Below are positions 4,715 through 34,182 of a DNA stretch of 37,878 nucleotides, piece by piece. Position 1 is the first letter of the stretch. Every line of letters starts with the position of its first letter. The translations under genes were made by a program, and so were the position numbers. Origin of the DNA: a virus; IMG/VR virus record IMGVR_UViG_3300033145_001334, positions 1 to 37,878 of that record; one strand, 5' to 3'. Under the pieces are notes generated by a model that worked only from the letters and a program-made list of their open reading frames with translations, did not search any database and was not told where the DNA came from.

Positions 4715-6460
4715 ATGCCAACACCAACCAAAGAAAAACGGCTAAATATCTGGATAGACAGAGTTGAAAGAGCTGCGAAAAAACGTAAAGCTTATTTTAA
4801 AACAATTAAAAAATACAAAAAGTTTTACGATGGCGAGCAATGGGGCGACAAGAAGGTTACATTAAAAGACAAAACAACTGTCAACTTGATTTTCGCTCAT
4901 ATTAAATCTCAAATTCCATTTTTGTATTTCCAAAACCCGAAATGGTATGTGCGTCCAAAGGGCATACATAAAGCTCAGTTTGCTGAAAATGCCAGATTAG
5001 CGGAAATGATGTTAAATTATTATGTGGAAGAAAATTTAAGAATTTCTTTAAAAAAACAAATAAGGCTTGCAATTTTAGATGCTTTTTTTGCTTTTGGCGT
5101 TATTAAGACTGGATATATTGCCGATTTTGAAACGAATAAAAACTTTGGGCAACCAAAAGTTTTGGGGGAAGATGAGGCGGGCAAACCTATTTACGATGTT
5201 TCTGAAAGTGGAGAAATGATTATTGATGAAGAAGAAGAAATAGTTACAAATGAAGCATTTTATGCCCGTAGAGTTTCTCCGGCCCAAATGCTTTTCGACC
5301 CAGAATGTGAAAATTATTTTGAAGATGGAAGATGGATTGGACAAGAAATAATAAAATCTTATCATGATGTTAAAAACAGTAAATTATATAAAAATACAAG
5401 CACTCTTGAGCCGAGTTATTTTGCAAAGACTGGATATCCTTTAGATAAAACTGATGGGGCTTATTGGGAGGATGGGGTTCCAGAAGTTAAAGAAGATGTT
5501 AGCAGGATTAAACTTTATGAAGTTTATGATCTTGAACATGATAAATTAATCGTTTTTGCAGAAGGACACGACAAGTTTCTTCGATATGAAGATATACCAG
5601 ATGGAATAGACGGAAGTCCATTTTCCTTTTTAAGGTTCAATGAGTCTCCAGATGAAATGTATCCGTTATCTGACATAAAATCCTTGAAACCTATTCAAGA
5701 GGAATATAATGTTGGACGAGCAATGATTTTAACTCATGCTAAAAGATTTGCGAGAAAATATGGATATATCCTTGAAAAATTTGCGGGAGACGACCCAGGA
5801 AAAGAGATTGAAAAATTAAAAGACCCTGAAGATGGTGCATTGTTTCAAGTTAACGAGTTGCCATTAAAGGGGGTAATTGAACCATTAAACGATGCTCCCC
5901 TTGACTCCGCTGTATATGCTAATTTTGAACAAACCAAACAAGATTTTCGTGAAGTGGGAGGGGCAACAGAACATGAAAGAGGACTTGTTGAAAGAAGAAA
6001 AACAGCTTATGAAGCGTCTAAAATCGCTGGAGCTGCAAGCATTAGAAAACAAGATCGAGGTAGTCTTGTTGAAGATTTTTGTTCAGAAATTGGAACAAAA
6101 TTATTGCAATCTATGCAAGCAAACTTAACGTTAGGAATGGTCGTTGAAATAGTAGGAGAAGAGGGTGTTAAACAATGGCAAACTGTTTCAAGGGAAGATA
6201 TTGTTGGAGAATATAATGTAGGCGTTACTGTTGGGACTTCTGCCCCAAGAACACCTGAGTTTGAAAAACGAGATTTATTGGAACTTATACAGGTTTTAGC
6301 ACAACTCCCCAGAGAAGTAATTTTACCGAAAATTAATGTTGGAGGACTTATTCAAGAGATGTTAAAGCTCTATCCTTTGGTGGATGCACGGGCCATTATA
6401 AATACCCCAGAAGAAGAACAAGCAATGGAACAAAAAATAAGAATGGAACAAGGAGAGTGA
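4715..6460 (+). CDS. Portal (head-tail connector) protein
   Basis: A 581-residue protein immediately after TerL. The N-terminal region (KKYKKFYDGEQWGDKKVTLK, then VNLIFAHIKSQIPFLYFQNP) is typical of podovirus-type portals: a YxGxQW-like opening followed by a short stretch predicting the wing. A middle part with the RRVSPAQMLFDPECENY segment and a helical C-terminal half (ERGLVERRKTAYEAS onward) also fit. It would form the dodecameric ring through which DNA enters and leaves the head and on which the terminase docks. Family assignment rests on order, size and these segments. Confidence 0.87.
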   Translation: MPTPTKEKRLNIWIDRVERAAKKRKAYFKTIKKYKKFYDGEQWGDKKVTLKDKTTVNLIFAHIKSQIPFLYFQNPKWYVRPKGIHKAQFAENARLAEMMLNYYVEENLRISLKKQIRLAILDAFFAFGVIKTGYIADFETNKNFGQPKVLGEDEAGKPIYDVSESGEMIIDEEEEIVTNEAFYARRVSPAQMLFDPECENYFEDGRWIGQEIIKSYHDVKNSKLYKNTSTLEPSYFAKTGYPLDKTDGAYWEDGVPEVKEDVSRIKLYEVYDLEHDKLIVFAEGHDKFLRYEDIPDGIDGSPFSFLRFNESPDEMYPLSDIKSLKPIQEEYNVGRAMILTHAKRFARKYGYILEKFAGDDPGKEIEKLKDPEDGALFQVNELPLKGVIEPLNDAPLDSAVYANFEQTKQDFREVGGATEHERGLVERRKTAYEASKIAGAASIRKQDRGSLVEDFCSEIGTKLLQSMQANLTLGMVVEIVGEEGVKQWQTVSREDIVGEYNVGVTVGTSAPRTPEFEKRDLLELIQVLAQLPREVILPKINVGGLIQEMLKLYPLVDARAIINTPEEEQAMEQKIRMEQGE

Positions 6461-9739: not shown

Positions 9740-10504
9740 TTGAATAAAATATGTGTTGCTACGAATATTTATCAAATTGACCCCCTTGTTTATGCTTCTC
9801 ATCTTTCAGCATTTTATAGAATTGGGAAAAATTTACCTGATTGGCAACTTGAATTTGTTGGCCCTTGGAGGTATTCGATAGACGTTGGTAGAAATTTTGC
9901 AGCAGAAGCAGCCCTTAACTTGGAAAGCAGATATTTATTGTTTTATGATGATGATATGTTTCTTCATCCTGATTTGGTGCAACGGCTTGTTGAGAGAATG
10001 GAAAATACAGATGCTCATATTGTTATGGCAAAATGCTATATTCGAGGTTATCCTTATGAACCAATGATTTTTAAATTTACAGATGAAGAGAAAACAGAAC
10101 TTGACAGATATAGTTATAAATCAGAAGATGTCGATGAGAGAGGACTTGTAAGGGTTGATGCGGTTGGTTGCCCATGCACTATTATTGATGTTGAGTTATT
10201 TAAAAAAATTCCTAAGCCTTGGTTCCTTACAGGGCAATTACATACAGAAGATGTCTATTTTTGTTTGAAGGCAAAGGAGCACATTGAAAATCTCAAAATT
10301 TATATGGATAATACTTTTGATTGTGGACATCTTTTGGATAGAAGAATTTTAAACAGCGAAACAAGGCAAAATTTAATAGAGGATCATAAAAGAGGATATG
10401 ATCAATTTGGACTGCCAAGTAAGATTATAAAAAAGGAAAATGATGATACAAAAGAGGGAAAAGTTTTTGACAACCCCTTAAAAAAGGAGCTTGAAAATGG
10501 CTGA
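9740..10504 (+). CDS. GT-A fold glycosyltransferase-like protein
   Basis: A 254-residue protein with a TTG start preceded by AAAGGAGGAAG. A family-2-like core is visible: VGRNFAAEAALNLESRYLLF then the metal-binding D70-D71-D72 in FYDDDMFLHPDL, and later GQLHTEDVYFCLKAKE, which fits the acceptor-side catalytic motif. A pattern of CGH near residue 190 may also contact metal. It would transfer a sugar from a nucleotide-sugar donor. Lying inside the virion operon, it might glycosylate a capsid or tail protein, or be cargo that alters the host surface. Target unknown. Confidence 0.78.
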   Translation: MNKICVATNIYQIDPLVYASHLSAFYRIGKNLPDWQLEFVGPWRYSIDVGRNFAAEAALNLESRYLLFYDDDMFLHPDLVQRLVERMENTDAHIVMAKCYIRGYPYEPMIFKFTDEEKTELDRYSYKSEDVDERGLVRVDAVGCPCTIIDVELFKKIPKPWFLTGQLHTEDVYFCLKAKEHIENLKIYMDNTFDCGHLLDRRILNSETRQNLIEDHKRGYDQFGLPSKIIKKENDDTKEGKVFDNPLKKELENG

Positions 10505-10754
10505 TGAATTAAAAATAATTATAACCCCTATTTTGACTAAGGACATAAAGAATGATGGTGGCGAACAGTTGTATAAGGATTATGGATTTAGTTACGTTTC
10601 TATTAACAATGTTGGTGGGGTAATGTTCTCTGGAGATTATTTAATTAATGATAATATCCCAAACGATAATCCTGGAGATAATGTTTATTATACTGCTCCA
10701 GCGGTTAGAAATACAAATTCTTGGAAACCGGAAGAAGGTTTTGGGTTTGTATAA
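10497..10754 (+). CDS. Hypothetical small protein
   Basis: An 85-residue protein; the ATG at 10497 is preferred because AAAAGGAGC sits 7 bases upstream, within the end of the glycosyltransferase gene. Its stop overlaps the next gene's start as TAATG. The sequence is mixed, with SYVSINNVGGVMFSGDY and many Asn/Asp, and suggests a small beta-rich domain. No family is recognised. Tight coupling on both sides ties it to the transferase and methyltransferase. Confidence 0.65.
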   Translation: MADELKIIITPILTKDIKNDGGEQLYKDYGFSYVSINNVGGVMFSGDYLINDNIPNDNPGDNVYYTAPAVRNTNSWKPEEGFGFV

Positions 10755-11281
10755 TGTCTAAAAAAAGATATTTACAGGTTGGTTGTGGCGGAGTAAGGTT
10801 TAAAGATACCATAAATCTTGATATTTCTAAAAACCCAGCAGTTCTTGCTGATGTTATCGCTGATTGTGGGATTATTCCATTTGAAGACGAAACCTTTGAT
10901 GGTATAATAGCATTGCATGTTCTTGAACATACGCTCAGAGAACGTCATGAAAGTATATTGTCAGAATGGTGGCGAGTTCTTAAACCAGGGGGAAAATTGC
11001 TTTTTGAATGTCCTGATTTTGAAAAATGCTTAAAAGCATATTTAGACAATTATAAAGGTTTAAGAGATACATATTGGTATATAACTATTTTTGGAATGGG
11101 AAGAAATGATATTGGGGAATCGGACAGACATGTTTCTGGAATAACTGTTCAATATATAACGGATTTATTGTTTAAGGTTGGGTTTTGTGATTTAGACTGG
11201 AAAGAGTCTCCAGAAAGTTGTAATCATAATATTAAATTAGTTGCAACAAAAGGAGAAATCCCGTCTTGGCAGCATTTATAA
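10754..11281 (+). CDS. Class I SAM-dependent methyltransferase
   Basis: The ATG at 10754 overlaps the preceding stop and gives 175 residues. Motif I is YLQVGCGGVRFKDTINLDI (the SAM glycine loop and the acidic residue after strand 2). FDGIIALHVLEHTL and WWRVLKPGGKLLFECPDF are the motif IV and V region of Methyltransf_11 proteins. The small size and absence of a target-recognition domain argue for a small molecule or sugar substrate. Placement next to a glycosyltransferase suggests the two modify the same glycan or surface group; that is inference. Confidence 0.82.
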   Translation: MSKKRYLQVGCGGVRFKDTINLDISKNPAVLADVIADCGIIPFEDETFDGIIALHVLEHTLRERHESILSEWWRVLKPGGKLLFECPDFEKCLKAYLDNYKGLRDTYWYITIFGMGRNDIGESDRHVSGITVQYITDLLFKVGFCDLDWKESPESCNHNIKLVATKGEIPSWQHL

Positions 11282-17816: not shown

Positions 17817-20800
17817 ATGAGTGAAATGGCAGAACGTATCCTGGAAAGAAGGAGACAACGAGCAAATGAAAAAATTGAAAAAATTGATGATATTTCAAAA
17901 TTAAGTCCATTGGCTCAACGTATTTTAGCCAGAAGAAAAGAAAGAGGAATTACAAAACCCACAGAAGAACCATCTTTTCTTGATATAGCTGTCCCAGCCT
18001 TCCTTCACGGTGCTACAGTCGGCGCATATACTCCCGAAAATTATAAACAATTAGTAAAAGAACATCCCTGGATAACAGGCATATCTGACTTTGCTGGTGC
18101 TACTGTTCCTATTGCTGCATTAAGTATTATTGCCTCACCAATTGTTGGCTTAGGTGCCAGAACTGCATTTGGAGCAAGAGCATTAACAACTGGTGGACGG
18201 TTAGCCAGAGCTGGAGCAACTGGTGCCGTAATAGGTGCTCCTTATGGTGCTGCTGAAAAATACTTTGAAGGTGGAACTCCTGGTGAAATAGTCAAAGCAG
18301 GACTAAAAACGGGAGCAATATTTGGAGCATTAGAGCCTGCTGTTGTTGGAACAGGAATGGTTATTAAGGGATGGCGTGGCGCTAAAGTTTCTAAAGAAAT
18401 TGGAAATGATTTAAAAGCAAAGGTAGATGAAATACGTGGAAATATTATAGAACAGTTTAAAATTGCTTACAGGAATGGAGACCAAGCAACAATGGAAAGA
18501 CTGCGTGCGGAGTTAGACAAGTATCCTACTTTTGATGCTGGTGCAATTCCTACTGGTGAAGCCATTCCAATGCCAGCTCCTGGCGTATCTTTAAGAACAG
18601 ATATTGTTAAATGGAAACCACAAGAAGCATTAGGAGAAAGTAAGCCGAAAACTGTTGAAACCGAAGCAGGAACAAAACTTCTTGAAACAAAATCAAACAT
18701 AACCGAAGCTCAAAGAGAGTTTAAGAATCGGTCGTCTAAAGCCTTTTTTGCTTTATACGACACAGAAACCAAACAACTTTCAGATGCGGTTACGGACGAA
18801 ACTATTAAAGCAACTGGTAAGAACATTAAAGTTATGGTTGATAATGGAAAAGTCAAAATAATAGAAATCGGTAAAGGTGTAACCAAAGCAGACGAAAGAA
18901 AGACAATTATAGAGGCAATAGGTGAGACTCGTAACAAATTTCTGAAAACTGAACTTTATAAAGAAATGTCTCCAGAAGAGGAATTTTTATCTCTTGATAT
19001 AGATGGTGGTGTTGAAGCTGCAATTAAAGATGTTGCTGAAGAGGTAATACATCCGTCAGGTAAAGTTGTAACGATGAGCGGTTTAAAAAAACTGGCAGAA
19101 ACCAAAGGCTTAAAATATGAACAGTTAATAAGAAATGATGGTGGGTTTGAATTTAAAATTTTAACAAAAGATGGTAGAACTGAAGCAATATTTCAGGATA
19201 TGTATTCGGTGGACAAATTTTTAAACGAGTATAAAATCGGAACAAAGATAGAAAAATTAGAAAATAAAATTGGATTAAAAAGCATTGAAAGAGCGCCAGA
19301 ACTTGTTTCTGACAAATATAAATTTGAAAGTCCCAGGGTTATAAAATCTTATAAAAGAATTTTAGAATATGAAAGGATGTATCAGGGAGAAAGTTTACCA
19401 GATTTTGTTTCAATAATAAATGTATTGGGAAAAAGTGGAGCATATAGTGCCCGTAGAGATATTAATCTTCTTCAAAAATTTCAACCAATGAAAAATGCGT
19501 TGCAGGCAGCAGAAAGAAAATCTTATATTCCTGTTTATAATGAGGGATATTTACCAATGGAAAAAGCAATGCAAGAAGAAGGGGACTGGTTATTTCCACA
19601 AATGAAAATAATCAGAGAATCGTTTAGGGGAATTAAAAGAGCACGCAGAGAAAATATTGTTGGGAAAGTTCTTGAAACAAAAGGAGTTATACGATTAAAT
19701 AGAAACTACTCAGAAACAATGAAATTAATAAATGCTGACCCAACATTAAAAGAAATGTTTGGAAGCATGACTGAAAACGAATTTAGAGCTGCTAAGTTTT
19801 CAAGAGAAAAATATGATGAGTTTTTTAGTTTTTTTGATGTAGAGGCTGAAAGATATTTGGAAGATTATCTTCCAAGAATGAGAAAAATGGGAACAGATTT
19901 TACCGAAAAATTAATTAACGAGTTTAATATGCCGAAGGGTTATTATGTATTTTTTAAACACCAAAGAACTGGTGGATATTTTCCAAGGGAAAAAGACCCC
20001 CTTAGATTGCTTAGTGCTTATGCAAGAATTGGAGCAAATGAAAAATTTCTTGAACCGTCATACCAAAAATTTGTTAAGATGCTGGAGGCTTACAAAAAAG
20101 AGGGTATGCTTCTACCTGGAGTAGAAGCTCTTGCAAAAAAATATTTAGGAGAGGTTAGAAGTTTTAAAACCGGTTCTGGATATGCTTTAGATCAAACAAT
20201 CAGAGACGTGGCAACCTTTTTTAGCAAGATGTTGAAAAAAGCTGGAATGAAAGAATGGGAAAAAGAAGATATTGAAAGAATAGTGAGCAAATTAGTATCT
20301 TATGAACTAAACCTAACTTATGCTGGTGCAATGGGATTTCGTCCATATACTTGTATAAGAAATGTATTTCAAACTCTTCTTACAACATTACCAAAGCTTG
20401 GGCCAAAATATACGCTTCTTGGAATTAAGGATGCTTTAACAAAAGAAGCGTGGAATGAAGCAAGAGCAGCCGGACATTTGGTAGAAAGGTATTCCCCTGT
20501 TCCTTTTGGAGAAGAAGTTGTTGGTGGCGCAATAGAAAAAACAGCCAAAGCTTCTTTATGGGCATATAGGAAAGCAGATAGTTTTAACAGAGTTGTTGCA
20601 TATCGTGGTGCAAAAAGAATGATAGAAAACTATACAAAGCTACTTGAAAAAGATTTAAAGGGGCTAATACGAAAAAGAGACCAAAAATTAATCGACAAAA
20701 GATTGAAAAAATTTAATAGACAGGTAGAATGGGACTGGGTTGATCCTGTTGTAATGACTGGAGAATTTAAACCTTTATTGGAAACTGGAAGATTTAAAGA

Positions 20801-21311
20801 ATTGGGTGAAAGATTTGCAAGACACATGGTTGAAGATACTCAATGGATTTACAGAAGGGCAAATGCTCCTTATTGGATGAGAGGAAATGTTGGAAAACTA
20901 TGTGGTCAATTTGGAATATGGCCTACATATTTTGCTCAATATGGTCGTTCTCTCACAAGGGGAGATCCGATAAATGTTGCGAAACGACTGTCAAGATTTG
21001 CTGCTATTAGTTCATTAACAGCTTTTGTTGGAGCAAATGTTTTTGGAGTAGATATAAAAAAATGGGTATGGTATCATCCACTAATGTGGGGTGGCCCGCC
21101 ATCAGTGGGGGCAATAAATGCCCTTAGAAAATCAATTCCAGGTGTTAGTTCTGAATATGAACAAGCGGTTGCTGAAAATACTTTAAAAAGTTATGCTAAG
21201 ATCCATATTCCGAGTTATCTTGCTGCCCGAGGAATAGTCCAGGCTATCGAGGAAACTGATGAAGAAGATAGACTAAAAAAGCTTTTAGGGTTCAAGCCGG
21301 TTGAGGACTAA
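17817..21311 (+). CDS. Very large internal virion (ejection) protein
   Basis: At 1164 residues this is the longest protein in the window. The N-terminus is basic and helical (MSEMAERILERRRQRANEKI). A Gly/Ala-rich hydrophobic region near residues 50-185 (IAALSIIASPIVGLG, ATGAVIGAPYGAAEKYFEGG) could insert in a membrane. Long mixed segments follow, and the C-terminal 400 residues hold several amphipathic helices (WRAYRKADSF-like pattern around SLWAYRKADSFNRVVAYRGA). No lytic transglycosylase motif is seen at the N-terminus, unlike T7 gp16. The size, order and helix content suggest the main ejection protein. It ends the ejection set. Confidence 0.65.
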   Translation: MSEMAERILERRRQRANEKIEKIDDISKLSPLAQRILARRKERGITKPTEEPSFLDIAVPAFLHGATVGAYTPENYKQLVKEHPWITGISDFAGATVPIAALSIIASPIVGLGARTAFGARALTTGGRLARAGATGAVIGAPYGAAEKYFEGGTPGEIVKAGLKTGAIFGALEPAVVGTGMVIKGWRGAKVSKEIGNDLKAKVDEIRGNIIEQFKIAYRNGDQATMERLRAELDKYPTFDAGAIPTGEAIPMPAPGVSLRTDIVKWKPQEALGESKPKTVETEAGTKLLETKSNITEAQREFKNRSSKAFFALYDTETKQLSDAVTDETIKATGKNIKVMVDNGKVKIIEIGKGVTKADERKTIIEAIGETRNKFLKTELYKEMSPEEEFLSLDIDGGVEAAIKDVAEEVIHPSGKVVTMSGLKKLAETKGLKYEQLIRNDGGFEFKILTKDGRTEAIFQDMYSVDKFLNEYKIGTKIEKLENKIGLKSIERAPELVSDKYKFESPRVIKSYKRILEYERMYQGESLPDFVSIINVLGKSGAYSARRDINLLQKFQPMKNALQAAERKSYIPVYNEGYLPMEKAMQEEGDWLFPQMKIIRESFRGIKRARRENIVGKVLETKGVIRLNRNYSETMKLINADPTLKEMFGSMTENEFRAAKFSREKYDEFFSFFDVEAERYLEDYLPRMRKMGTDFTEKLINEFNMPKGYYVFFKHQRTGGYFPREKDPLRLLSAYARIGANEKFLEPSYQKFVKMLEAYKKEGMLLPGVEALAKKYLGEVRSFKTGSGYALDQTIRDVATFFSKMLKKAGMKEWEKEDIERIVSKLVSYELNLTYAGAMGFRPYTCIRNVFQTLLTTLPKLGPKYTLLGIKDALTKEAWNEARAAGHLVERYSPVPFGEEVVGGAIEKTAKASLWAYRKADSFNRVVAYRGAKRMIENYTKLLEKDLKGLIRKRDQKLIDKRLKKFNRQVEWDWVDPVVMTGEFKPLLETGRFKELGERFARHMVEDTQWIYRRANAPYWMRGNVGKLCGQFGIWPTYFAQYGRSLTRGDPINVAKRLSRFAAISSLTAFVGANVFGVDIKKWVWYHPLMWGGPPSVGAINALRKSIPGVSSEYEQAVAENTLKSYAKIHIPSYLAARGIVQAIEETDEEDRLKKLLGFKPVED

Positions 21312-21487: not shown

Positions 21488-22753
21488 ATGAAATTCTTAT
21501 TTTTTTCAAAAAACGGTGATACTGCAGAACTTTGCCGACGAGTGATAAGAGAGGGACATACAGCATCTTTATATATAGACGAACCTGAATTTAAAGAAAT
21601 TTTTAATGGGATCGTTCCTAAAGTTGACAAATGGGAAAAAGCTGTTAACAAAGACGTAGTAACAGTTTTTGATATGGTTGGTTATGGAGAGATAGCCGAT
21701 GATCTTATTAAAAAAGGTTTTCTTATCTTTGGTGCTGGAACCATAAACGATAAATTAGAATTAGATCGAGAATATGGGATAAAAGTTATGCAAGAAGCGG
21801 GGATAAAAACTCCTAACGCTGAAGAATTTAAAAGCTTTAGTTCTGCATATAACTATATAGCTCGTAACAAAAACAAAAGATTGGTTTTTAAACCATCTGG
21901 CAACCTTAATTTAGATTGGACATTTGTATCTGCCAATACAGAAGAATTAATAGATAAGATGGAATTTTTTAAAACTGAATGGCCACCTGAAAAACCAGTT
22001 GAATTTATTTTAGAAGAATTTATAGACGGTATTGAGGTAAGCACAGAAGGTTGGTTTAATGGAAAAGGTTTTGTCAACATAAATTCTACTATGGAAGAAA
22101 AAAAGTTATGCACCGGTGATCTTGGTGTAAACGTTGGTTGTTCTGGTAGTATTGTTTGGAATTACAGTCGGCCTCCGTTGTTGTTCAATAAAACTTTGAG
22201 AGGTTTATTTTCCTCCTTACTCTCAAAGTATAAATTTCGGGGGCCGATTGATATAAATTGCATTGTTAGCAACGAAACACATGAACCGTATGGATTAGAA
22301 TTTACAAGCAGATTTGGTTATTCAGCATTGCAAGCATGGGCAGAGGGGTTAAAAACCGGACTTGGCGAAATATTATATGGGATTGCCAATGGAAGCATTA
22401 GACAAATAAAAACAACTAATGATTTTTTATCCGCTGTTAGAGTTTCCATAAAACCATACCCCTACGATAGCGCCAAAGAAAGAAAAGGAGATATTATACA
22501 GACATCTCCACTCGATATGAAACATTATTGGTTTTGTGATGTAATGATGGATAAAAAAGATTTGGTTGTTGCTGGGACCGATGGTGTTATCTGTGAAGTC
22601 TCGGGTAGTGGCAAAACAATAGAGAATGCTATCGCCGACGTCTATAAAAATGTTAAAAAAATAAAAACTCCATCTGATTTGTTTTATAGAACAGATATTG
22701 GAGAAAGAGTAAAAAAAGAATATAATGTTTTACAAAAATGGGGATTGTTATAG
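21488..22753 (+). CDS. PurD-like ATP-grasp protein (divergent GAR synthetase family)
   Basis: A 421-residue protein with the domain order of phosphoribosylamine-glycine ligase. It has a Rossmann-like N-terminal domain, then LIFGAGTINDKLELDREYGI (PurD's FGP...LE-S-K linker), EEFIDGIEVSTEGWFNGKGF, CTGDLGVNVGCSGSI (PurD's GDKGPNTGGMG) and PYGLEFTSRFGYSALQ (PurD's EFNARFGDPE). The ATP glycine loop (K-A-D-G-L-A-x-G-K-G in true PurD) is replaced by FKPSGNLNLDWTFVSAN. It therefore probably joins a carboxylate to an amine, but with altered substrates. It is the last late gene, meeting the early operon head to head. There is no strong Shine-Dalgarno sequence. Confidence 0.8.
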   Translation: MKFLFFSKNGDTAELCRRVIREGHTASLYIDEPEFKEIFNGIVPKVDKWEKAVNKDVVTVFDMVGYGEIADDLIKKGFLIFGAGTINDKLELDREYGIKVMQEAGIKTPNAEEFKSFSSAYNYIARNKNKRLVFKPSGNLNLDWTFVSANTEELIDKMEFFKTEWPPEKPVEFILEEFIDGIEVSTEGWFNGKGFVNINSTMEEKKLCTGDLGVNVGCSGSIVWNYSRPPLLFNKTLRGLFSSLLSKYKFRGPIDINCIVSNETHEPYGLEFTSRFGYSALQAWAEGLKTGLGEILYGIANGSIRQIKTTNDFLSAVRVSIKPYPYDSAKERKGDIIQTSPLDMKHYWFCDVMMDKKDLVVAGTDGVICEVSGSGKTIENAIADVYKNVKKIKTPSDLFYRTDIGERVKKEYNVLQKWGLL

Positions 22754-22756
22754 TTC

Positions 22757-23131
22757 TTATTCTGATATAATTAAGTTTTTTTTCACTTCAAAACATTCCT
22801 CACAAAAAAAATCGACAGCTTTTTTTATCGTGTTGAAAGAATGTTTAAGCACTCCATATTTTTCCTGCTTATTATGATACCATACTATAACGGGAAATCC
22901 TCCAGCATTATGTATTTCTTCTAAAGTATGTTGTTGATATGGTGTTATTTTCATTTGAAAGTCCCTGATTATTTTAAATTCAATTCCGACAAATATTCCA
23001 TAAAAACATAAAATAATATCTGGAATACCCCTTACTTGCATGGGCTGGCCGTGGGACTTGAAAAACCAGCAAGAAGGATGTTTCTTTTTTACTTCTTCCA
23101 TAAACTTTTTGATTAGGTTTTTTTCTAACAT
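22757..23131 (-). CDS. VRR-NUC family nuclease
   Basis: A 124-residue single-domain protein matching the small phage VRR-NUC pattern of the PD-(D/E)xK superfamily: SHGQPMQVRGIPDIILCFYG (G-x-PD), FVGIEFKI (the E-x-K pair) and TPYQQHTLEEIHNAGGFPVI (the Q and AGG). Such stand-alone enzymes act as structure-specific nucleases, often on branched DNA. Its stop is 3 bp from the opposite-strand PurD-like stop. Its start overlaps the stop of the primase gene by one base, so it is translated with it. It may resolve replication or recombination intermediates. Confidence 0.85.
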   Translation of the reverse strand: MLEKNLIKKFMEEVKKKHPSCWFFKSHGQPMQVRGIPDIILCFYGIFVGIEFKIIRDFQMKITPYQQHTLEEIHNAGGFPVIVWYHNKQEKYGVLKHSFNTIKKAVDFFCEECFEVKKNLIISE

Positions 23132-25926
23132 TACATTAAGCCTCCTTTCCTATAATGATCCTCTAATTTCTTCAACAACGATACAAACTGGGGCTGAAGC
23201 ACATACCAACTTTTAATTCTTTTAATACAATTGTGTTCTACCAAAAACCTTTTAAATGCTTTTGCGCTTTCTCTGTCTTGGTCCGTATAATCCATTATAT
23301 CCTCAAATAATATTTCTCTTGCTGCCAATATTTTTTCTACAAATCTTTTTGGGTTTGATAAACCCATTATATATGCCTTAACTTCATTTGCTTTTTGAAT
23401 GGTTTGATCTTTCTTACTTATAATACTATAATTATCATAACCAAAATACTTACTATCATAAATATTCTCAAGAAAACTAACAACAACCTCTACATGCTCT
23501 GGCCTAACCATTACATTAATTCCATTTTCTGTTGAAAACATCCTACATGCCAAAGCAACACAAAGTTTTGCAAGTCTTATTCTTTGGACGCTTCTTTGAA
23601 CAAGGGGGATGGTGTCTGTATATTTTTCTGCCATTGCTTCTGCTTTTTCTAATATCTTTCTTTTTCCCTCATTAGTAAACACAATATGGTGTGGCTTTCT
23701 ACTCCACGCCCATTGTAATAACCAACTGTTTAGTTCGGAGGTGTAAATATGTTCTACTGTATGATGATACGATTCTTCTCTGTTTAATATGTGGGGGTCT
23801 ATATCTTTTTGTGTTATTATTATGGCAAAATCAAATCTTGCTATGTCTTCGTTTTTTCCTATTAAATCTTTTATTGCTTCAACACCACTGGTATAATGTT
23901 CAATTCTTTTACCATACGATCTTGGATTAGACAATACAATTATTCTTACTCTTGCCAATGTTTTTCTCGTAGAACCAACAACTGTTCGTTCTGCTATTCC
24001 GGTATCTCTTATTGATGAAAGATTGGCCCATCCTTCTTTGTCTAATGCGTTTCCTTCGTCTAAAACAACAAGATGACCATCGTTTAAAGGAAGCGCTCCC
24101 CATCCAAAAAATTTTTCATTACCAAGTTGTGCCACACCACCGATTAGTCCTGGTATAGACGCCCCTTCTAATGTTCTATAGTCTCCTGCTTTATAATGAC
24201 TAATTAGTTTTTGAACTGTTTTTGTTTTCCCTGTTCTTTCATCACCAAGGATAAGAACTTCTGTCCATCCTTTTGTAACTTTTGCATTTAAGAAATTAAA
24301 ACTTAGCACCGAAAAGAAAACTAAATCGCAACAAAACATTAGATCTTCTCTTTTAATAATTTTTTCCTGATCTTTAATGTTGAAAGTAAAATCAGTATAT
24401 ATGTCTTTTAATTTTTGTGCTATTGACCGCGGATTATTTTCTATTGGATTAAATATTTTTAAAGCAGTTTTTTGCTCTTCTGATAACTCAAAATTGTATA
24501 AGTCTGCTATTTCAGGCTTTTGCCTTGGGAAAATATTAGTTAATTGCTGACTTCGTGGATCATTAATAGTTTTTCCATAAAAAGAATAAATTTTATTTGT
24601 TACTAAATTATCTGAAACTGTAAATACTTTCCGTGTAACAAACTGTTGTTCCATTAAATTAATATCTATTTCAGGACATATAATTATTTCTTCAATGGAA
24701 CGTATTGTTGCTTTTACTTTATAAAAATTACATTTTTGATAAATCCCGCTTATTCTTTTAAGTTTCCTTCTTTGTTCTTCATTTGAACAGTTTATTAATT
24801 CAAGAGAGTCTATTAAATCTATTTTTACATCAGTTGTTCCTCCCGAAAAAAACAAAGGGCAGCCCTTACAACTATCTCCACACTCAAAATTACAGGTTAG
24901 GGTTGCCTTCTCAGGTGCAGCATAAGAAGCGACTCCCTTTCCAACAACGTGAGCCTTAAAGTAAATGTTCTTTCCAAAAAATTCGCTTTTTGTTGCTTCG
25001 TGGAATGTTGTTTTTATATATTCTTCTTCCTCTTCTTCCTCTTTTTCTACTTTCTCTGCTAATGAGACCAATTGATTCCATATAGTATTGAATTGTTTAC
25101 CTTTGTCAAGAGATGAAAAAAATAAATCTGTAAAATCTGCGTTTTTTAATTCTTTTGGAAAAATTTCTTTAGGCAAATGAATTATAAAAGTTTCTTTAGC
25201 ATGTGAAACAAGATTTTGACCTAAAATTTTTGCTGATTTTTTACCAATGTCATCTATATCATAACAAATATATACTTTTTTATCTTTAAATAGTGGCAAT
25301 AATGCTCTATTAAAAGAGCCTTCACCACCAGTAAAAGTAATTCCAGGTAAACCCAGTTGGTTTGCTAAAATTGTATCTGGTTCACCAGCAAAAAGGATAA
25401 TTGTTTCTTTTCCTAAGTTTTCTATTGGAAATAATGTTATTCCACCATGTCCTTTTACGTTTCTAAACTTTTGTTTTGTTTTATGAAATAAATCATATTT
25501 TCTAATATTTATTAAATTATTATCTTTATCATAAATTGGTATTGTTATAAAATTGTTTATCCAGCCAAGTTTAAATTTCCTAATAATGGAATCGTCCCAT
25601 CCCCTTTTTATTTTTACAGCTTTAAGTAAATGTTCTGAAGTTATTAACAAATTGTTAGCAAAAATTACTTCGGCATTAGACAGAATATCCATTCTTTCGC
25701 TTCCAAGAATCGCTGCTTTAGCTTTAGGAAACGAAACTTTATGGTAATCCATATAAAACTGAAAAACATCTCCACCTTTTTGACAGGCATGACAAAACCA
25801 TTTTCCCGTATCAAGGTCAAGAGAAAGAGATGGCGTTTTATCGTCATGAAATGCACAGTTTACATTTTGCTTTGGAATTGGTTTTAAGTCTGGGAAATAT
25901 TTAAGGTAAAAATCATAATATTGCAT
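23131..25926 (-). CDS. CHC2/TOPRIM primase fused to MCM-like AAA+ helicase
   Basis: A 931-residue protein. The N-terminus has a CHC2 zinc finger (C24, H27, C45, C48). A TOPRIM domain follows (E182 in LFAGEPDT; D223 and D225 in YICYDIDDIG). An acidic linker (about residues 293-303) leads to a region with four cysteines (C345, C349, C353, C356) that may be an OB/zinc unit. The C-terminal motor has Walker A GDERTGKT (561-568), Walker B HLVVLDEGNAL (D623, E624), a sensor-like RIIVLSNPR and ARFD (R697), which resemble MCM proteins rather than a DnaB or T7 gp4 RecA-type motor. It should prime and unwind DNA at the phage fork. Confidence 0.85.
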   Translation of the reverse strand: MQYYDFYLKYFPDLKPIPKQNVNCAFHDDKTPSLSLDLDTGKWFCHACQKGGDVFQFYMDYHKVSFPKAKAAILGSERMDILSNAEVIFANNLLITSEHLLKAVKIKRGWDDSIIRKFKLGWINNFITIPIYDKDNNLINIRKYDLFHKTKQKFRNVKGHGGITLFPIENLGKETIILFAGEPDTILANQLGLPGITFTGGEGSFNRALLPLFKDKKVYICYDIDDIGKKSAKILGQNLVSHAKETFIIHLPKEIFPKELKNADFTDLFFSSLDKGKQFNTIWNQLVSLAEKVEKEEEEEEEYIKTTFHEATKSEFFGKNIYFKAHVVGKGVASYAAPEKATLTCNFECGDSCKGCPLFFSGGTTDVKIDLIDSLELINCSNEEQRRKLKRISGIYQKCNFYKVKATIRSIEEIIICPEIDINLMEQQFVTRKVFTVSDNLVTNKIYSFYGKTINDPRSQQLTNIFPRQKPEIADLYNFELSEEQKTALKIFNPIENNPRSIAQKLKDIYTDFTFNIKDQEKIIKREDLMFCCDLVFFSVLSFNFLNAKVTKGWTEVLILGDERTGKTKTVQKLISHYKAGDYRTLEGASIPGLIGGVAQLGNEKFFGWGALPLNDGHLVVLDEGNALDKEGWANLSSIRDTGIAERTVVGSTRKTLARVRIIVLSNPRSYGKRIEHYTSGVEAIKDLIGKNEDIARFDFAIIITQKDIDPHILNREESYHHTVEHIYTSELNSWLLQWAWSRKPHHIVFTNEGKRKILEKAEAMAEKYTDTIPLVQRSVQRIRLAKLCVALACRMFSTENGINVMVRPEHVEVVVSFLENIYDSKYFGYDNYSIISKKDQTIQKANEVKAYIMGLSNPKRFVEKILAAREILFEDIMDYTDQDRESAKAFKRFLVEHNCIKRIKSWYVLQPQFVSLLKKLEDHYRKGGLM

Positions 25927-27527: not shown

Positions 27528-27983
27528 TTAAAATGGTACATCTTCGTCTGCGCTATCTTTTATGCTACCTTTTATTGGCTCAATTTCTCTTTGAATATAA
27601 ACGTTCTGATAACCATTTTTTGTTTTTAGCTCAATTTCATAATATTTATCAATTATGCCAATAAATTTTTCGACTACGTTTGACCACTTAAATTGTTTAA
27701 TCCCAAGAACTCTTAAATCTCTCGTTAAATAGTCAAGGTTTTCTGCTGTTTCCATCCCACAATATTTTCTAATATACGCACCCCTTTCTTCTCCAGTTTC
27801 GACCATAAACTCCATTACGGTTTGAAGTCTATTTGACGCTTTTGACCTGGTTATTCTTATACTACTTAAACTAACCTGATAAACACCATCTGGTAAATTT
27901 TCCCCAAACGTCAATTCAACATTGTCTGGATTGTGGATTTCATCTAATTGTTCCACATCATCTTTGTATTCATAATTAACCAT
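27528..27983 (-). CDS. DUF669-like, ssDNA-binding-type protein
   Basis: A 151-residue protein with an OB-fold-like pattern (ENLPDGVYQVSLSSIRITRS, YYEIELKTKNGYQNVYIQ) and a C-terminal acidic tip ADEDVPF, the partner-binding tail used by SSB proteins. DUF669 proteins usually lie next to AAA_24/Sak4-like ATPases, as here. It probably coats single strands during annealing and recombination. A GGAGGG site precedes the ATG. Confidence 0.7.
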   Translation of the reverse strand: MVNYEYKDDVEQLDEIHNPDNVELTFGENLPDGVYQVSLSSIRITRSKASNRLQTVMEFMVETGEERGAYIRKYCGMETAENLDYLTRDLRVLGIKQFKWSNVVEKFIGIIDKYYEIELKTKNGYQNVYIQREIEPIKGSIKDSADEDVPF

Positions 27984-28001: not shown

Positions 28002-28700
28002 TTATTTGTTTTCAAACACCTTTTTTAAAGCATTCCAATTCATATCAATTTCTTGAACCCTTAAAAGTCTTCTTGTTCTGTCCCCTGCAATCCAATTTTC
28101 AGAAGGAGCGGTTTTTATTACTCTTTTTTCACCATCTTCTGTTATAATAGAGGTAAAATAAAGAATAATATCAACAAATCCTTCCATCTGCGTCCATATA
28201 TAATTTTGCATGGACGGGACAGCTTTTGTTATTGTTGCTATTCTCGTTTTTATTTCGATTTCTTTAGTATGAGAAATTAAAATAAGTCCATAGGGAGAAA
28301 CTGCCAGCTTTACCAATGGTCTTAAAAATTCATCCTTAACAAGCATCCAAGCCTTCCCCCAGTCTAAATCTGAGGGATGTTGTATATTATTCTTTATCAT
28401 AATATAATTTTGACATAATTTGTGTAAAATATCAGCAGTATCTATACAAAGACAAGAATAGTCATGTTCCTCTGTGGTAAATTCTTTACATAGATTTAAA
28501 AAACTGCCACTACCATTTGCCCAGCTTGACACTGGTTCTCTATACACCGAAAGAGCAGAAAGGCCGCCTTCGGTATCCGCAAACAAAACTTTGTCTATTT
28601 CAGAAACAAAAGTGGATTTTCCTATCTTTGGTGCTCCATGAATAAAAATTACATAATCGAATAAGTTTTGTTTTGGTTTACTTTTCTCTTTGGGTAACAT
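28002..28700 (-). CDS. AAA_24/Sak4-like RecA-fold ATPase
   Basis: A 232-residue protein with Walker A HGAPKIGKST at residues 21-30, a Walker B-like CLCIDTADIL, and the AAA_24 pattern VLFADTEGGLSALSVYREPV. Related Sak4 proteins anneal single strands and help phage recombination, needing a single-strand-binding partner, which would be the DUF669-like neighbour. A GGAGGATAAAA site precedes the ATG. A 90-bp leader (28701-28790) with two extra GGAGG sites but only 5-codon frames lies upstream. Confidence 0.8.
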   Translation of the reverse strand: MLPKEKSKPKQNLFDYVIFIHGAPKIGKSTFVSEIDKVLFADTEGGLSALSVYREPVSSWANGSGSFLNLCKEFTTEEHDYSCLCIDTADILHKLCQNYIMIKNNIQHPSDLDWGKAWMLVKDEFLRPLVKLAVSPYGLILISHTKEIEIKTRIATITKAVPSMQNYIWTQMEGFVDIILYFTSIITEDGEKRVIKTAPSENWIAGDRTRRLLRVQEIDMNWNALKKVFENK

Positions 28701-29104: not shown

Positions 29105-29371
29105 TTATTCTTCGTCTAACCATATCTTGTTTAACCATTTCTTCATTTTCTCAGAAGAGCCCCAGCATGCCGATGGAACTTCATTATAAAAGAATTCAAC
29201 AATGTCAGACATTCGTTTAATATTAATATGATCTGCTCGCTTAAAACTTTCCACCAAATTATTTTGGATTACTGCTGTCAGGAAACCGCCAGGTTGAATA
29301 CGGTCTTCGACGTATGCTTTGACAGCTTTTCGTATATGTTCCGGTAATAGTTCGTAATTTCTCATTTTCAT
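29105..29371 (-). CDS. Conserved phage protein of unknown function
   Basis: An 88-residue protein beginning MKMRNYELLPEHIRKAVKAY, then IQPGGFLTAVIQNNLVESFK and EVPSACWGSSEKMKKWL. The order 'LPEH-R..., PGGFLTAV-NNL, RADH-N, FYNE-P-CWGS' is a very common pattern in small proteins of enterobacterial and other phages, usually near replication genes, with no known role. It starts inside the last bases of the Fe-S nuclease gene (overlap 29368-29371). Confidence 0.75.
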   Translation of the reverse strand: MKMRNYELLPEHIRKAVKAYVEDRIQPGGFLTAVIQNNLVESFKRADHINIKRMSDIVEFFYNEVPSACWGSSEKMKKWLNKIWLDEE

Positions 29372-30243
29372 TCCTCCTTTTCATAAAAGGTTTCTAATGT
29401 TTCTTCTGTTGGATCATTACAATACTTCAAATATGCACATTCTCCATAAATTGCACATTTTTGACCAGAACGATACCATCTTTTTGTTTTATAGGCCATT
29501 TTTATATCTTCAAAAATCTGTTCAATTTCATCAGAAAATTCTCTTAAAGCTTTTTGGTTTTTATAAATTTTTTCTTCATAAAAATAGTCATCTTTTTTCT
29601 CTACATATTCCAGCATTAATCGTTTTCTAAATTGTTCTATGTTTTCATTTCTTTTTTGTCTGATAGATGGCTTTCTAACCACTCTATATAGAACACCAAC
29701 AATCGGTTTTCTTAACCATTTTCGTAAAGCATAAAAATAACAATTCATTTGAAAATCTGTGTCTAATCTCTTTATATAGTTTTTATCAATGCTTGTCGCC
29801 GTCTTTATTTCTACAATCCAATTTTCTTTTCCTCGACGATAAAGTCCATCAAGCTCACAAAATAATCTGTGTTTCTTTCTCCCATATTTGCCAATAGGAA
29901 CAGAAATTTTGTAATGGGGTTCTATGTTTATCTGATAAAAATTATTACAATAACCATATATCATTCCCTGGGTAATAATTTTGGAATTTTCAAGATCGTC
30001 TATTTTTTCTTGAGTTGTTGCGTTCAGTAACATTTCATTATATTCTTGATCTATGGCAATCATACATTCTTCAACTGGCTTTCCTCGATGATATTCGGCA
30101 ACACTCTTATCAAAAAGAGAGCCAATGTCTATATATGTGGCAAAGGTTCGTGGTCTCCATCCCTGATTGACTTGAAGATCAAATTTTCTACGGCATTGTA
30201 AAAACGCAGCAATATTATGTTGTCTCAAAATTATTTGTTCCAT
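29368..30243 (-). CDS. Cas4/RecB-like PD-(D/E)xK nuclease with Fe-S cysteines
   Basis: A 291-residue protein with an N-terminal cysteine (C17 in FLQCRRKFDL) and three C-terminal cysteines (C263, C269, C275 in GQKCAIYGECAYLKYC), the layout of a 4Fe-4S cluster in Cas4 and AddB-type nucleases. The active-site set D132, E145 and K147 (ELDGLYRR, WIVEIKTAT) plus Q165 in DTDFQMNCYFYAL completes the RecB-family nuclease. It may resect ends or process branched DNA during recombination. Its start is 29 bp inside the end of the small zinc-protein gene. Confidence 0.85.
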   Translation of the reverse strand: MEQIILRQHNIAAFLQCRRKFDLQVNQGWRPRTFATYIDIGSLFDKSVAEYHRGKPVEECMIAIDQEYNEMLLNATTQEKIDDLENSKIITQGMIYGYCNNFYQINIEPHYKISVPIGKYGRKKHRLFCELDGLYRRGKENWIVEIKTATSIDKNYIKRLDTDFQMNCYFYALRKWLRKPIVGVLYRVVRKPSIRQKRNENIEQFRKRLMLEYVEKKDDYFYEEKIYKNQKALREFSDEIEQIFEDIKMAYKTKRWYRSGQKCAIYGECAYLKYCNDPTEETLETFYEKEE

Positions 30244-30409
30244 TCTTTCCTCCTTTAATTTCTACCTCTTTTTCGGCTTTTATAATAGGTTCAAGATAAC
30301 CATATAAACGCTTACAACAGTCAGAACAAACGCTTCCCAGTCCCCATACAATCCACAGTTTGTCGCTCTGATACATTTCTTCACAAATTTTACATTTTCC
30401 CTTTGCCAT
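30215..30409 (-). CDS. Small two-CxxC zinc protein
   Basis: The ATG at 30409 is preferred because AGGAG lies 7-11 bases upstream, giving 64 residues; a longer frame runs back into the glutaredoxin gene. Cysteines C6, C9 and C28, C31 (KCKICEEM, VCSDCCKRLYG) form a likely zinc ribbon, followed by a Lys/Glu tail. It overlaps both neighbours (the glutaredoxin end at 30390 and the nuclease start at 30243). Function unknown. Confidence 0.65.
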   Translation of the reverse strand: MAKGKCKICEEMYQSDKLWIVWGLGSVCSDCCKRLYGYLEPIIKAEKEVEIKGGKNGTNNFETT

Positions 30410-30788
30410 TTTTTTCTCCTCTTTTAACCTTAATTTTTTCTTCCATTTTCTCAACATCGGTAATTACCTCACCGTTCCAAACCAAAACAGGAACGGTCTG
30501 AATGCCGGCTTCAAGACAAATAAGTTCCGTCAATCCTTCTGGTTCTTCAACATTGTATTCTTGATAATTAATTCCCCTTTTTTCCATCATTTTTTTTATT
30601 GTTACACAATTAGGGCAAGATTTTTTTGTAAAGATAATAACCTCTTTTTCCATTGTTTCACTCCTTTCTTTGGCTGGTTGGGGGGCAGCCATATTAACAT
30701 GCCCAGCAGCCCAAGCATGAGACATTTTTCGTAGCGTTGCTTCATTTTCTTTTGGATAGTATCTTTTTGCCCACTCATTAAAAGTCAT
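30390..30788 (-). CDS. Glutaredoxin-like protein with an N-terminal extension
   Basis: The full frame gives 132 residues. Residues 46-120 are a glutaredoxin/NrdH-like domain with CPNC (C58, C61) in VIIFTKKSCPNCVTIKK and TVPVLVWNGEVI as the substrate-binding cis-Pro loop. It could reduce disulfides, for example for ribonucleotide reductase. Residues 1-45 (MTFNEWAKRYYPKENEATLR, then MSHAWAAGH) resemble a small 'FxEWW...AW-AG' phage domain known as a separate protein. A second strong start (AAAGGAGTGAAAC, ATG at 30653) would give the glutaredoxin alone. Both starts have a ribosome site. Confidence 0.8.
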   Translation of the reverse strand: MTFNEWAKRYYPKENEATLRKMSHAWAAGHVNMAAPQPAKERSETMEKEVIIFTKKSCPNCVTIKKMMEKRGINYQEYNVEEPEGLTELICLEAGIQTVPVLVWNGEVITDVEKMEEKIKVKRGEKNGKGKM

Positions 30789-32457: not shown

Positions 32458-34182
32458 TTAGTTGCCCCTCACTATTTGAAATAAATTATCTCTTGTAATT
32501 AAATCAGCCACATTTTTTTTCGCTTTAAGAATTTTAGAAATTCCTACATCGATAGTTTCTTTTGCAATTATATCGATGTAGGTTACCTTTTTTGTTTGAC
32601 CAGCCCTATGAACTCTGTCTTCACTCTGTAACCTATTCATGAGAGAATAATCGTTAGAGTAAAAAACCACTATATTTGCAGCAGTAAGATCTACACCAAG
32701 CCCTCCCGTTCCCTGTGTTCCGACCAAAATTCTTGCTTTTCCATCTTGAAACTCTTTTATATTTTTTGTTCTTTCGTCGATTTTGGTATCCCCATACAGT
32801 TTTACACAAGATATTTTCATTTCATTTGCTAATTTATATATTCTGTCTATGTCATGCTTAAATCTGCTCCATACTACTAATTGATTTCCATTGCTGTTCG
32901 ATTCTTCCAAAATGTCTCTTAATGCTTCAAGTTTTGGGTTTGTTTCAAAATCAACAATTTTTTCAGAACTATCAACCACAAATCCTGATGTTATTTGAGA
33001 GAGTCTCAATAATTGTGTTAAAATTATTGGAGCTGTTACTTTTTCACTGTTTTCTATCTGAGTTATACAATAGTTTACCATCTCATCATATTTTATTTTA
33101 TTGGACATCGGTAAATCTATCACTCTGTTAACATAAAGTTTTTCTGGAATATCTACACATTCCTCTTTTCTAAATCGTGTTGACCATTCATAAATTTTAT
33201 TAGATATTGTTTCAGCACTTCCACGATTTAAGAATAGTTTCCAACCATTTCTCCAAAAATATTTATTTATAAACCTGTCGTAATTAAGGCCAAAACTTCT
33301 TCCACCGTTTAAAAACAAAAATTGACTAAACAAATCATAAGCATGTTGTGTTACCGGTGTTCCTGTTAAAATCATCTTATATTCAGTCAATTCACCAAGA
33401 GACAACAATTCTTTAGTTCTTTTTGCATGCGGATTTTTAATTTTTTGACTTTCGTCTGCAACTATCATCCACCTATTATTCACTTTGTTGTGTAGTTCCT
33501 TTCTTAAACCTGCAACACTATCATAGCTCATAATATAAAAATCATAAAAATCATCATTTAATGCTTGAAGTTTATTTTTCTTTGTTCCCTTTAGGGCAAT
33601 TCCACTATAATTACTCCATTTTTCGACTTCTTCAACCCATTTGTTCACTAAAGAAAGAGGACACACAACCAGACATTTTTCCACTTCTCCTTTTTTATTA
33701 TTTAGGGTAAACCCTTCTATAGCGACACGAGTTTTGCCGGTGCCCATTTCCCATAGTAATGCGTGAGCTTTAAAATAATTTAACCATTCTAAACCTACAA
33801 ATTGGTTTCTAAATGGAGTTGGTTTTTTATGATTAATCAATCTTATTCTGTTATGAACATTATCAATTTTTATATTTTCAAGATGTTTTAATCTATTTTT
33901 TCTATATTGTGTATTTATTATTTCTTTGTGCGCTGCCATCGCAAACGCTGGGGTATATTTAATTAGAACGTCAACGCCATCAAAAATTAACTTTTTCGGA
34001 GGCAATTGGTGTAAAATTACATCCACATTTTCTTTGCTTAAAGGATAAATCTTTTGTTTTCTTTTACTCAATCCACCATACAATTCATAAATCTTCGATT
34101 GAATTACCCAAAAATTATCTGTTTCTATTACTATTTTTTTATTTACATATCCAATTTTTATCTCTATTATCTTTGAGTCCAT
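32458..34182 (-). CDS. SNF2-family DEAD-like helicase/translocase
   Basis: A 574-residue protein with the two RecA-like lobes of SNF2-type ATPases. Walker A is LLWEMGTGKT (about 142-151), motif II is IVADESQKIKNP (DESQ in place of DEAH), motif III is MILTGTPV. The second lobe has RILVGTQGTGGLGVDLTAAN (motif V) and SEDRVHRAGQTKKVTYIDII (motif VI, the QxxRxxRxGQ-like site). It probably translocates on duplex DNA or remodels protein-DNA complexes. Phage homologues are common next to replication genes. Its start overlaps the end of the next upstream gene by 16 bp. Confidence 0.88.
   Translation of the reverse strand: MDSKIIEIKIGYVNKKIVIETDNFWVIQSKIYELYGGLSKRKQKIYPLSKENVDVILHQLPPKKLIFDGVDVLIKYTPAFAMAAHKEIINTQYRKNRLKHLENIKIDNVHNRIRLINHKKPTPFRNQFVGLEWLNYFKAHALLWEMGTGKTRVAIEGFTLNNKKGEVEKCLVVCPLSLVNKWVEEVEKWSNYSGIALKGTKKNKLQALNDDFYDFYIMSYDSVAGLRKELHNKVNNRWMIVADESQKIKNPHAKRTKELLSLGELTEYKMILTGTPVTQHAYDLFSQFLFLNGGRSFGLNYDRFINKYFWRNGWKLFLNRGSAETISNKIYEWSTRFRKEECVDIPEKLYVNRVIDLPMSNKIKYDEMVNYCITQIENSEKVTAPIILTQLLRLSQITSGFVVDSSEKIVDFETNPKLEALRDILEESNSNGNQLVVWSRFKHDIDRIYKLANEMKISCVKLYGDTKIDERTKNIKEFQDGKARILVGTQGTGGLGVDLTAANIVVFYSNDYSLMNRLQSEDRVHRAGQTKKVTYIDIIAKETIDVGISKILKAKKNVADLITRDNLFQIVRGN

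Follow-up and report, generated by a model that had tools for sequence, protein, structure and literature searches.

MCM serves archaea and eukaryotes as their replicative helicase, and one gene of a virus record raises the question of whether such a motor, joined in a single chain to a bacterial primase, could serve the replication fork of a phage. The window analysed here is the whole 37,878-nucleotide stretch of IMG/VR record IMGVR_UViG_3300033145_001334. A first-pass annotation, made from its letters alone, had read 23131-25926 as a DnaG-type primase followed by an MCM-like AAA+ motor with the motifs HLVVLDEGNAL, RIIVLSNPR and ARFD; on the minus strand an intact ORF of 931 codons lies at exactly these positions and encodes all three motifs (residues 618-628, 661-669 and 696-699). 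MCM in bacterial mobile elements has been described mainly together with archaeo-eukaryotic primases (AEP) (PMC5862659, PMC4538821), and a 2018 survey, which added bacterial plasmids to a list of bacterial MCM-family helicases previously drawn from phages only, treats AEP fusions of MCM (PMC5862659). Our literature search, whose scope left out the main dsDNA-virus replication survey and the BcMCM papers, returned no report naming a DnaG/TOPRIM-MCM fusion, for which an earlier mention is possible, and no biochemistry for any DnaG-MCM member.

A DnaG-type primase in one chain with an MCM-type motor

The 931-aa protein is confirmed as a DnaG-type primase fused to an MCM-type AAA+ motor. When it was compared with solved structures using phmmer, its N-terminus matched Aquifex aeolicus DnaG and residues 552-772 matched Sulfolobus MCM. 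Full-length homologues are present in phage records and viral contigs, and the catalytic residues of both halves are kept across 67 of them, with E182, D223, D264, G566-K567, W609-G610, E624, R640, R661, N667 and R697 invariant (67/67); such conservation excludes a chance origin of the motifs. The two modules would be joined via a flexible linker at residues about 290-303. The gene and its primase features are as follows.

23131-25926, minus strand: primase-MCM gene, 931 aa, ATG start, no stop inside the ORF
25690..25860, minus strand: CHC2 zinc finger, residues 23-79 (C24, H27, C45, C48; Pfam PF01807, 3.2e-12)
25117..25404, minus strand: TOPRIM catalytic domain, residues about 175-270 (acids E182, D223, D225, D264, D267)

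The CHC2 finger and TOPRIM domain proposed at first reading are both borne out, the latter at 0.019 in Pfam, under the cutoff, in the window protein and clearly above the cutoff in relatives, down to 1e-10. A profile built from residues 1-290 of 12 members matched A. aeolicus DnaG (2AU3) at 1e-28 over nearly the whole length of DnaG, and also other bacterial DnaG proteins and T7 gp4 (1e-9). The TOPRIM metal-site acids are kept in almost all of the 67 members. Among the CHC2 ligands, C24 and C45 are each found in 65/67, H27 in 55/67 and C48 in 41/67; the finger is therefore variable in the family, C48 being lost from 26/67 relatives, while that of the window protein is complete. In Krampus and Wollypog, Pfam did not detect CHC2, and fingers of the Krampus type are degenerate. 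An AEP-type N-terminus, as in BcMCM-type fusions, is absent from the window protein, which has CHC2-TOPRIM instead. With a CHC2 finger, an RNA-polymerase core and the TOPRIM acids (E, DxD, D) all present in the sequence, the N-terminal half is, on these grounds, a DnaG-type primase with predicted primase activity.

Evidence that the motor is of MCM type

The features of the C-terminal part are listed in the order of the protein.

24493..25020, minus strand: beta-rich N-tier-like domain, residues 303-478 (AlphaFold secondary structure; Foldseek alignment length)
24730..24894, minus strand: predicted zinc-ligand cysteines C345, C353, C356 and C399 (conservation in 67 homologues)
23809..24360, minus strand: MCM AAA+ core, residues 523-706 (PF00493; PDB profile matches exclusively MCM)
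24223..24246, minus strand: Walker A GDERTGKT, residues 561-568 (G561, D562, G566, K567 67/67)
24100..24141, minus strand: helix-2 insert hairpin, residues 596-609 (model strands; aligned to the MCM region)
24055..24072, minus strand: Walker B LVVLDE, residues 619-624 (E624 67/67)
23956..23997, minus strand: pre-sensor-1 hairpin, residues 644-657 (model strands)
23830..23850, minus strand: arginine-finger motif EDIARFD, residues 693-699 (E693, D694, R697 67/67; aligns with MCM SRFD)
23458..23739, minus strand: AAA+ lid, residues 730-823, with sensor-2-like R782 (model helices)
23149..23394, minus strand: C-terminal winged-helix-like domain, residues about 845-926 (helix and beta-hairpin order of the model)

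The ATPase set is complete, comprising Walker A and B, the sensor 1 Asn N667 (67/67), the arginine finger R697 and sensor 2 R782 (65/67). In the window protein, the Pfam MCM match (PF00493, 3.9e-5) is exactly at the gathering score, and Pfam detected neither MCM_lid nor MCM_OB. A motor profile of the 67 DnaG-type members, with AEP members excluded, was compared with PDB sequences: all 55 matches below 0.01 were MCM, the best at 1.6e-10, and the alignment spans the helix-2 insert region, Walker B, the pre-sensor-1 hairpin and sensor 1. Column 649, the position of the pre-sensor-1 lysine, is K in 58/67 relatives and V649 in the window protein, L016 and L017; the hairpin of the window protein and its two nearest relatives is one residue longer and bears R654-K655. 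The lysine is present in the family overall and lacking in the window member, which bears on function and not on kinship.

Residues 303-478 probably form an OB fold with a zinc insert, as judged from the predicted structure. The first-pass annotation had pointed to a four-cysteine region here and guessed at an MCM-like OB/zinc N-tier. Four conserved cysteines do exist (C345 66/67, C353 67/67, C356 66/67, C399 59/67), and these are the conserved set, C349 not being conserved; the N-tier guess agrees with the model and with the length of the structural alignments, and sequence-profile support for it is absent. The AlphaFold model of residues 300-931, built with the family alignment, has a pLDDT of 93.0 and a pTM of 0.90. 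Searched against the PDB with Foldseek, it returned MCM for 50 of the best 50 structural matches, with E about 1e-22 (top 8e-23), TM up to 0.62 and about 14% identity, and the full-length model likewise returned MCM for its best 50. These alignments cover roughly 550-690 columns and must therefore include the 303-478 domain. The modelled chain suggests a complete MCM-type module of OB/zinc N-tier, AAA+ core, lid and winged helix.

The outcomes named beforehand as contrary to an MCM motor, namely a RecA-fold or SF3 best match for the C-terminal half and a lack of the MCM hairpins, were not observed: the PDB profile matches and best folds were MCM throughout, and the model has both the helix-2 insert strands (596-601, 604-609) and the pre-sensor-1 strands (644-649, 652-657). 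No RecA-fold motor appeared in the PDB profile search or among the best 50 folds, nor any SF3 AAA+ motor among the best 50 structures, and both identities were rejected. A T7 gp4-like or SF3/D5-like primase-helicase, whose MCM-like motifs would have arisen by chance, could be proposed because such proteins are common in phages, the primase half does match T7 gp4, and the viral fold list includes, at low rank, DUF3987 and other AAA+ proteins. The fold search contradicts it, and DnaB_C, detected in 14/14 control genomes, had no match in 35 records of the family, several of them complete phage genomes; we consider this alternative extremely improbable. It is also quite unlikely, if less so, that the motor is another helix-2-insert AAA+ protein (Mg-chelatase, MoxR/RavA or dynein-like AAA_5) merely resembling MCM. 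PF07728 (AAA_5) does score 0.014 in L017 and 0.0068 in L043, and MoxR-like proteins stand lower down in the viral fold search; on the other hand, all the PDB sequence matches and top folds are MCM, the pre-sensor-1 hairpin, the ARFD finger, sensor 2 and the helix preceding Walker A all have aligned MCM counterparts, and the domain order is MCM-like, with a beta-rich Cys domain before the motor and a winged helix after it.

A phage family and its AEP-MCM sister clade

The DnaG-MCM architecture is that of a widespread phage family, not a one-off. When the C-terminal 629 residues were searched against phage records by tblastn, 50 records were found, 43 of them with at least 80% query coverage, including Krampusvirus, Arthrobacter phage Wollypog, vB_BboS-125, Weizmannia phage Youna2 and a Manatee Spring phage; Bacillus phages BSTP5/8/10/12 and BSP7 matched at 77% query coverage and two Paenibacillus phages in part. 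A count of 505 phage records overstates the family, since most of these match the CHC2 finger only and the motor half is matched by those 50. About 277 relatives were found on viral contigs, and nearly all of the best 80 align end to end with the query, indicating that the fusion is the normal state of the family; a scan of genome contigs gave only short matches to the primase half. Relatives were baited by motor motifs, and the sample covers these primases only where they are joined to this motor. Most members are full-length fusions annotated merely as 'DNA primase' or 'primase/helicase'. In one of them (L041:4986-8072, IMGVR_UViG_3300025087_000016), a KhpA-like KH gene that has a GGAGG site of its own (5794-6027, PF13083 1.9e-17) interrupts the TOPRIM region immediately ahead of the third acidic motif, and the motor part apparently resumes at a GTG directly behind it; an Rfam search of the split gene gave no match, and the split may be genuine or may come from a chimeric assembly.

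The same motor is also found with an AEP primase, in gp45 of Bacillus phage vB_BboS-125 (DNA_primase_S 3.9e-10; MCM 3.4e-13), whose depositors had already recorded its likeness to primase and MCM family protein, and in a 70-kb element of Bacillus velezensis (DNA_primase_S 3.4e-10; MCM 1.3e-13). The latter, 'plasmid p3' of strain LBY-1 (L098, NZ_CP079100.1; 70.5 kb, linear), resembles the vB_BboS-125 replication region, encodes an AEP-MCM 72% identical to that of vB_BboS-125, and probably represents a phage or a phage-plasmid. In a motor-only scan, about 33 loci were 58-100% identical to vB_BboS-125, followed by a gap and then by the DnaG-type loci at 35% or less. When all motor ORFs were classified by HMM, 123 were DnaG, 37 AEP, none both and 8 unassigned (several running off contig ends); these are counts of loci rather than of independent viruses, with some contigs counted twice. 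In an IQ-TREE phylogeny of 66 motors, one branch sets all AEP rows apart and another all DnaG rows, with support under this rooting of 93/70 for the DnaG-type and 69/0 for the AEP-type; a fully supported stem of 9.7 changes per column separates the phage motors from archaeal MCM. One exchange of primase type on a common motor accounts for both clades; long branches meet at that stem, so that the tree places the root among the phage motors with little certainty and does not show which way the exchange went. The prophage protein BcMCM, an AEP/MCM fusion for which 3'-5' helicase and, in later work, primase activity have been described (PMC4538821), is likely a member of the AEP clade, judging from its architecture and host.

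Probable place at the fork and comparison with known systems

The gene lies in a minus-strand block with genes for an SF2/SNF2 helicase, a Cas4-like exonuclease, a Sak4-like protein, a probable SSB, methyltransferases and a downstream nuclease.

22757..23131, minus strand: nuclease/resolvase-like neighbour (phrog_93 endonuclease 1.7e-12; Hjc 0.041)
27528..27983, minus strand: probable SSB (phrog_7778 SSB, weak, 0.021; positioned as SSB/DUF669 genes in relatives)
28002..28700, minus strand: Sak4-like RecA-fold annealing protein (phrog_124 8e-38; PF13479 3e-34)
29368..30243, minus strand: Cas4/RecB-like exonuclease (phrog_8097 2.8e-5; conserved position)
32458..34182, minus strand: SNF2/SF2 helicase (phrog_62 5e-118; PF00176 3e-23)

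The order of the block is much alike in relatives, where PolA or DnaE is often added. Elsewhere in the window, a PurD/GARS-like ATP-grasp gene (21488-22753, plus strand; GARS_A 2.7e-13, GARS_C 7.7e-8, the latter below cutoff) adjoins the convergent replication block. The structural block holds a glycosyltransferase-like (PF00535 8e-7) and class I methyltransferase (1.6e-12) gene at 9740-11281 and a 1164-aa protein with no Pfam match at 17817-21311, both on the plus strand, and the early region has a glutaredoxin gene (30390-30788, minus strand; PF00462 9.5e-13).

Since none of the 35 records carries a DnaB-family helicase, the primase-MCM is likely the replicative helicase. We put at roughly 0.85 the probability that it is the phage's replicative primase-helicase, a self-priming MCM ring whose hexamer, polarity, primase activity and place at the fork we infer; the 'compact replisome core' suggested by the first-pass annotation is plausible. 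Six copies would form an MCM ring travelling 3'-to-5' along the leading-strand template, with polarity taken from homology; the helix-2 insert and pre-sensor-1 hairpins would pull the DNA, and with the DnaG primase of each copy held on the N-tier side, the lagging strand could receive primers as it is displaced. MCM rings travel 3'-to-5' N-tier first, as established for CMG. A primase anchored to that tier would therefore be placed at the exit of the lagging strand from the ring; Pol alpha occupies a comparable place on CMG. T7 gp4 and DnaB have a polarity opposite to that of MCM and, to our knowledge, so does every known DnaG partner. Polarity and coupling could differ in our case, because the motor is far from cellular MCM in both identity and stem length.

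Alternatively, the fusion could act in initiation, restart or repair, with the main fork run by host DnaB and DnaG. No PolA or PolIII-alpha was found in the window or its two closest relatives, G001 and G002 (37.9, 39.0 and 34.8 kb), unlike in larger relatives, and these three phages may therefore depend on the host replisome; furthermore, a role in the restart of stalled forks has been proposed for BcMCM (PMC4538821) and the SCCmec helicase Cch2 requires a specific repeat sequence (PMC7581432). We nevertheless hold this to be unlikely: the fusion is also present, and DnaB lacking, in relatives that encode PolA or DnaE themselves, the fusion is retained almost family-wide, and the records without polymerase genes may be incomplete, as is possible for G001 and G002 and for the window, which has no direct terminal repeat.

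A broader proposal, for which we see the chances as about even, is an undescribed phage replisome lineage with DnaG on the N-tier of a 3'-to-5' MCM, reached via primase exchange on the motor common to AEP-MCM phages; if true, this would amount to a natural experiment, with one helicase served by two unrelated primases. The AEP-MCM motor lineage here carries a bacterial primase, in hundreds of phages, which shows that primase and helicase types are mixable. The fusion also offers a one-chain system for testing the coupling of a 3'-to-5' helicase to lagging-strand priming. PHROG 18685, now of 'unknown function', gains a function, and many 'DNA primase' annotations are sharpened.

Compared with known systems, the primase half has the CHC2 finger, RNA-polymerase core and TOPRIM acids in common with DnaG (A. 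aeolicus 2AU3) and the primase half of T7 gp4. Unlike DnaG, the fusion is without the C-terminal helicase-binding domain, and MCM is fused to it rather than DnaB bound; its primase is joined to MCM, whereas that of T7 gp4 is joined to a RecA-fold motor. With archaeal and eukaryotic MCM (SsoMCM, Mcm2-7) it has in common the helix-2 insert and pre-sensor-1 hairpins, arginine finger, sensor 2, an N-tier-like domain and a winged helix, and it differs from them in showing no helical domain A, in having a primase as its N-terminal part and in its very divergent sequence. Krampusvirus 'DNA primase/helicase' (Krampus gp47), Wollypog gp50, BSTP5 and Youna2 are full-length homologues of identical domain order, 27-30% identical, whose annotations leave the MCM motor unnamed. 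The AEP-MCM fusions share the Cys domain, the C-terminal winged helix and a similar gene neighbourhood; vB_BboS-125 gp45 has the same motor module (28% identity, E 3e-46 over 625 residues), but its primase is archaeo-eukaryotic, whereas that of the window protein is CHC2-TOPRIM.
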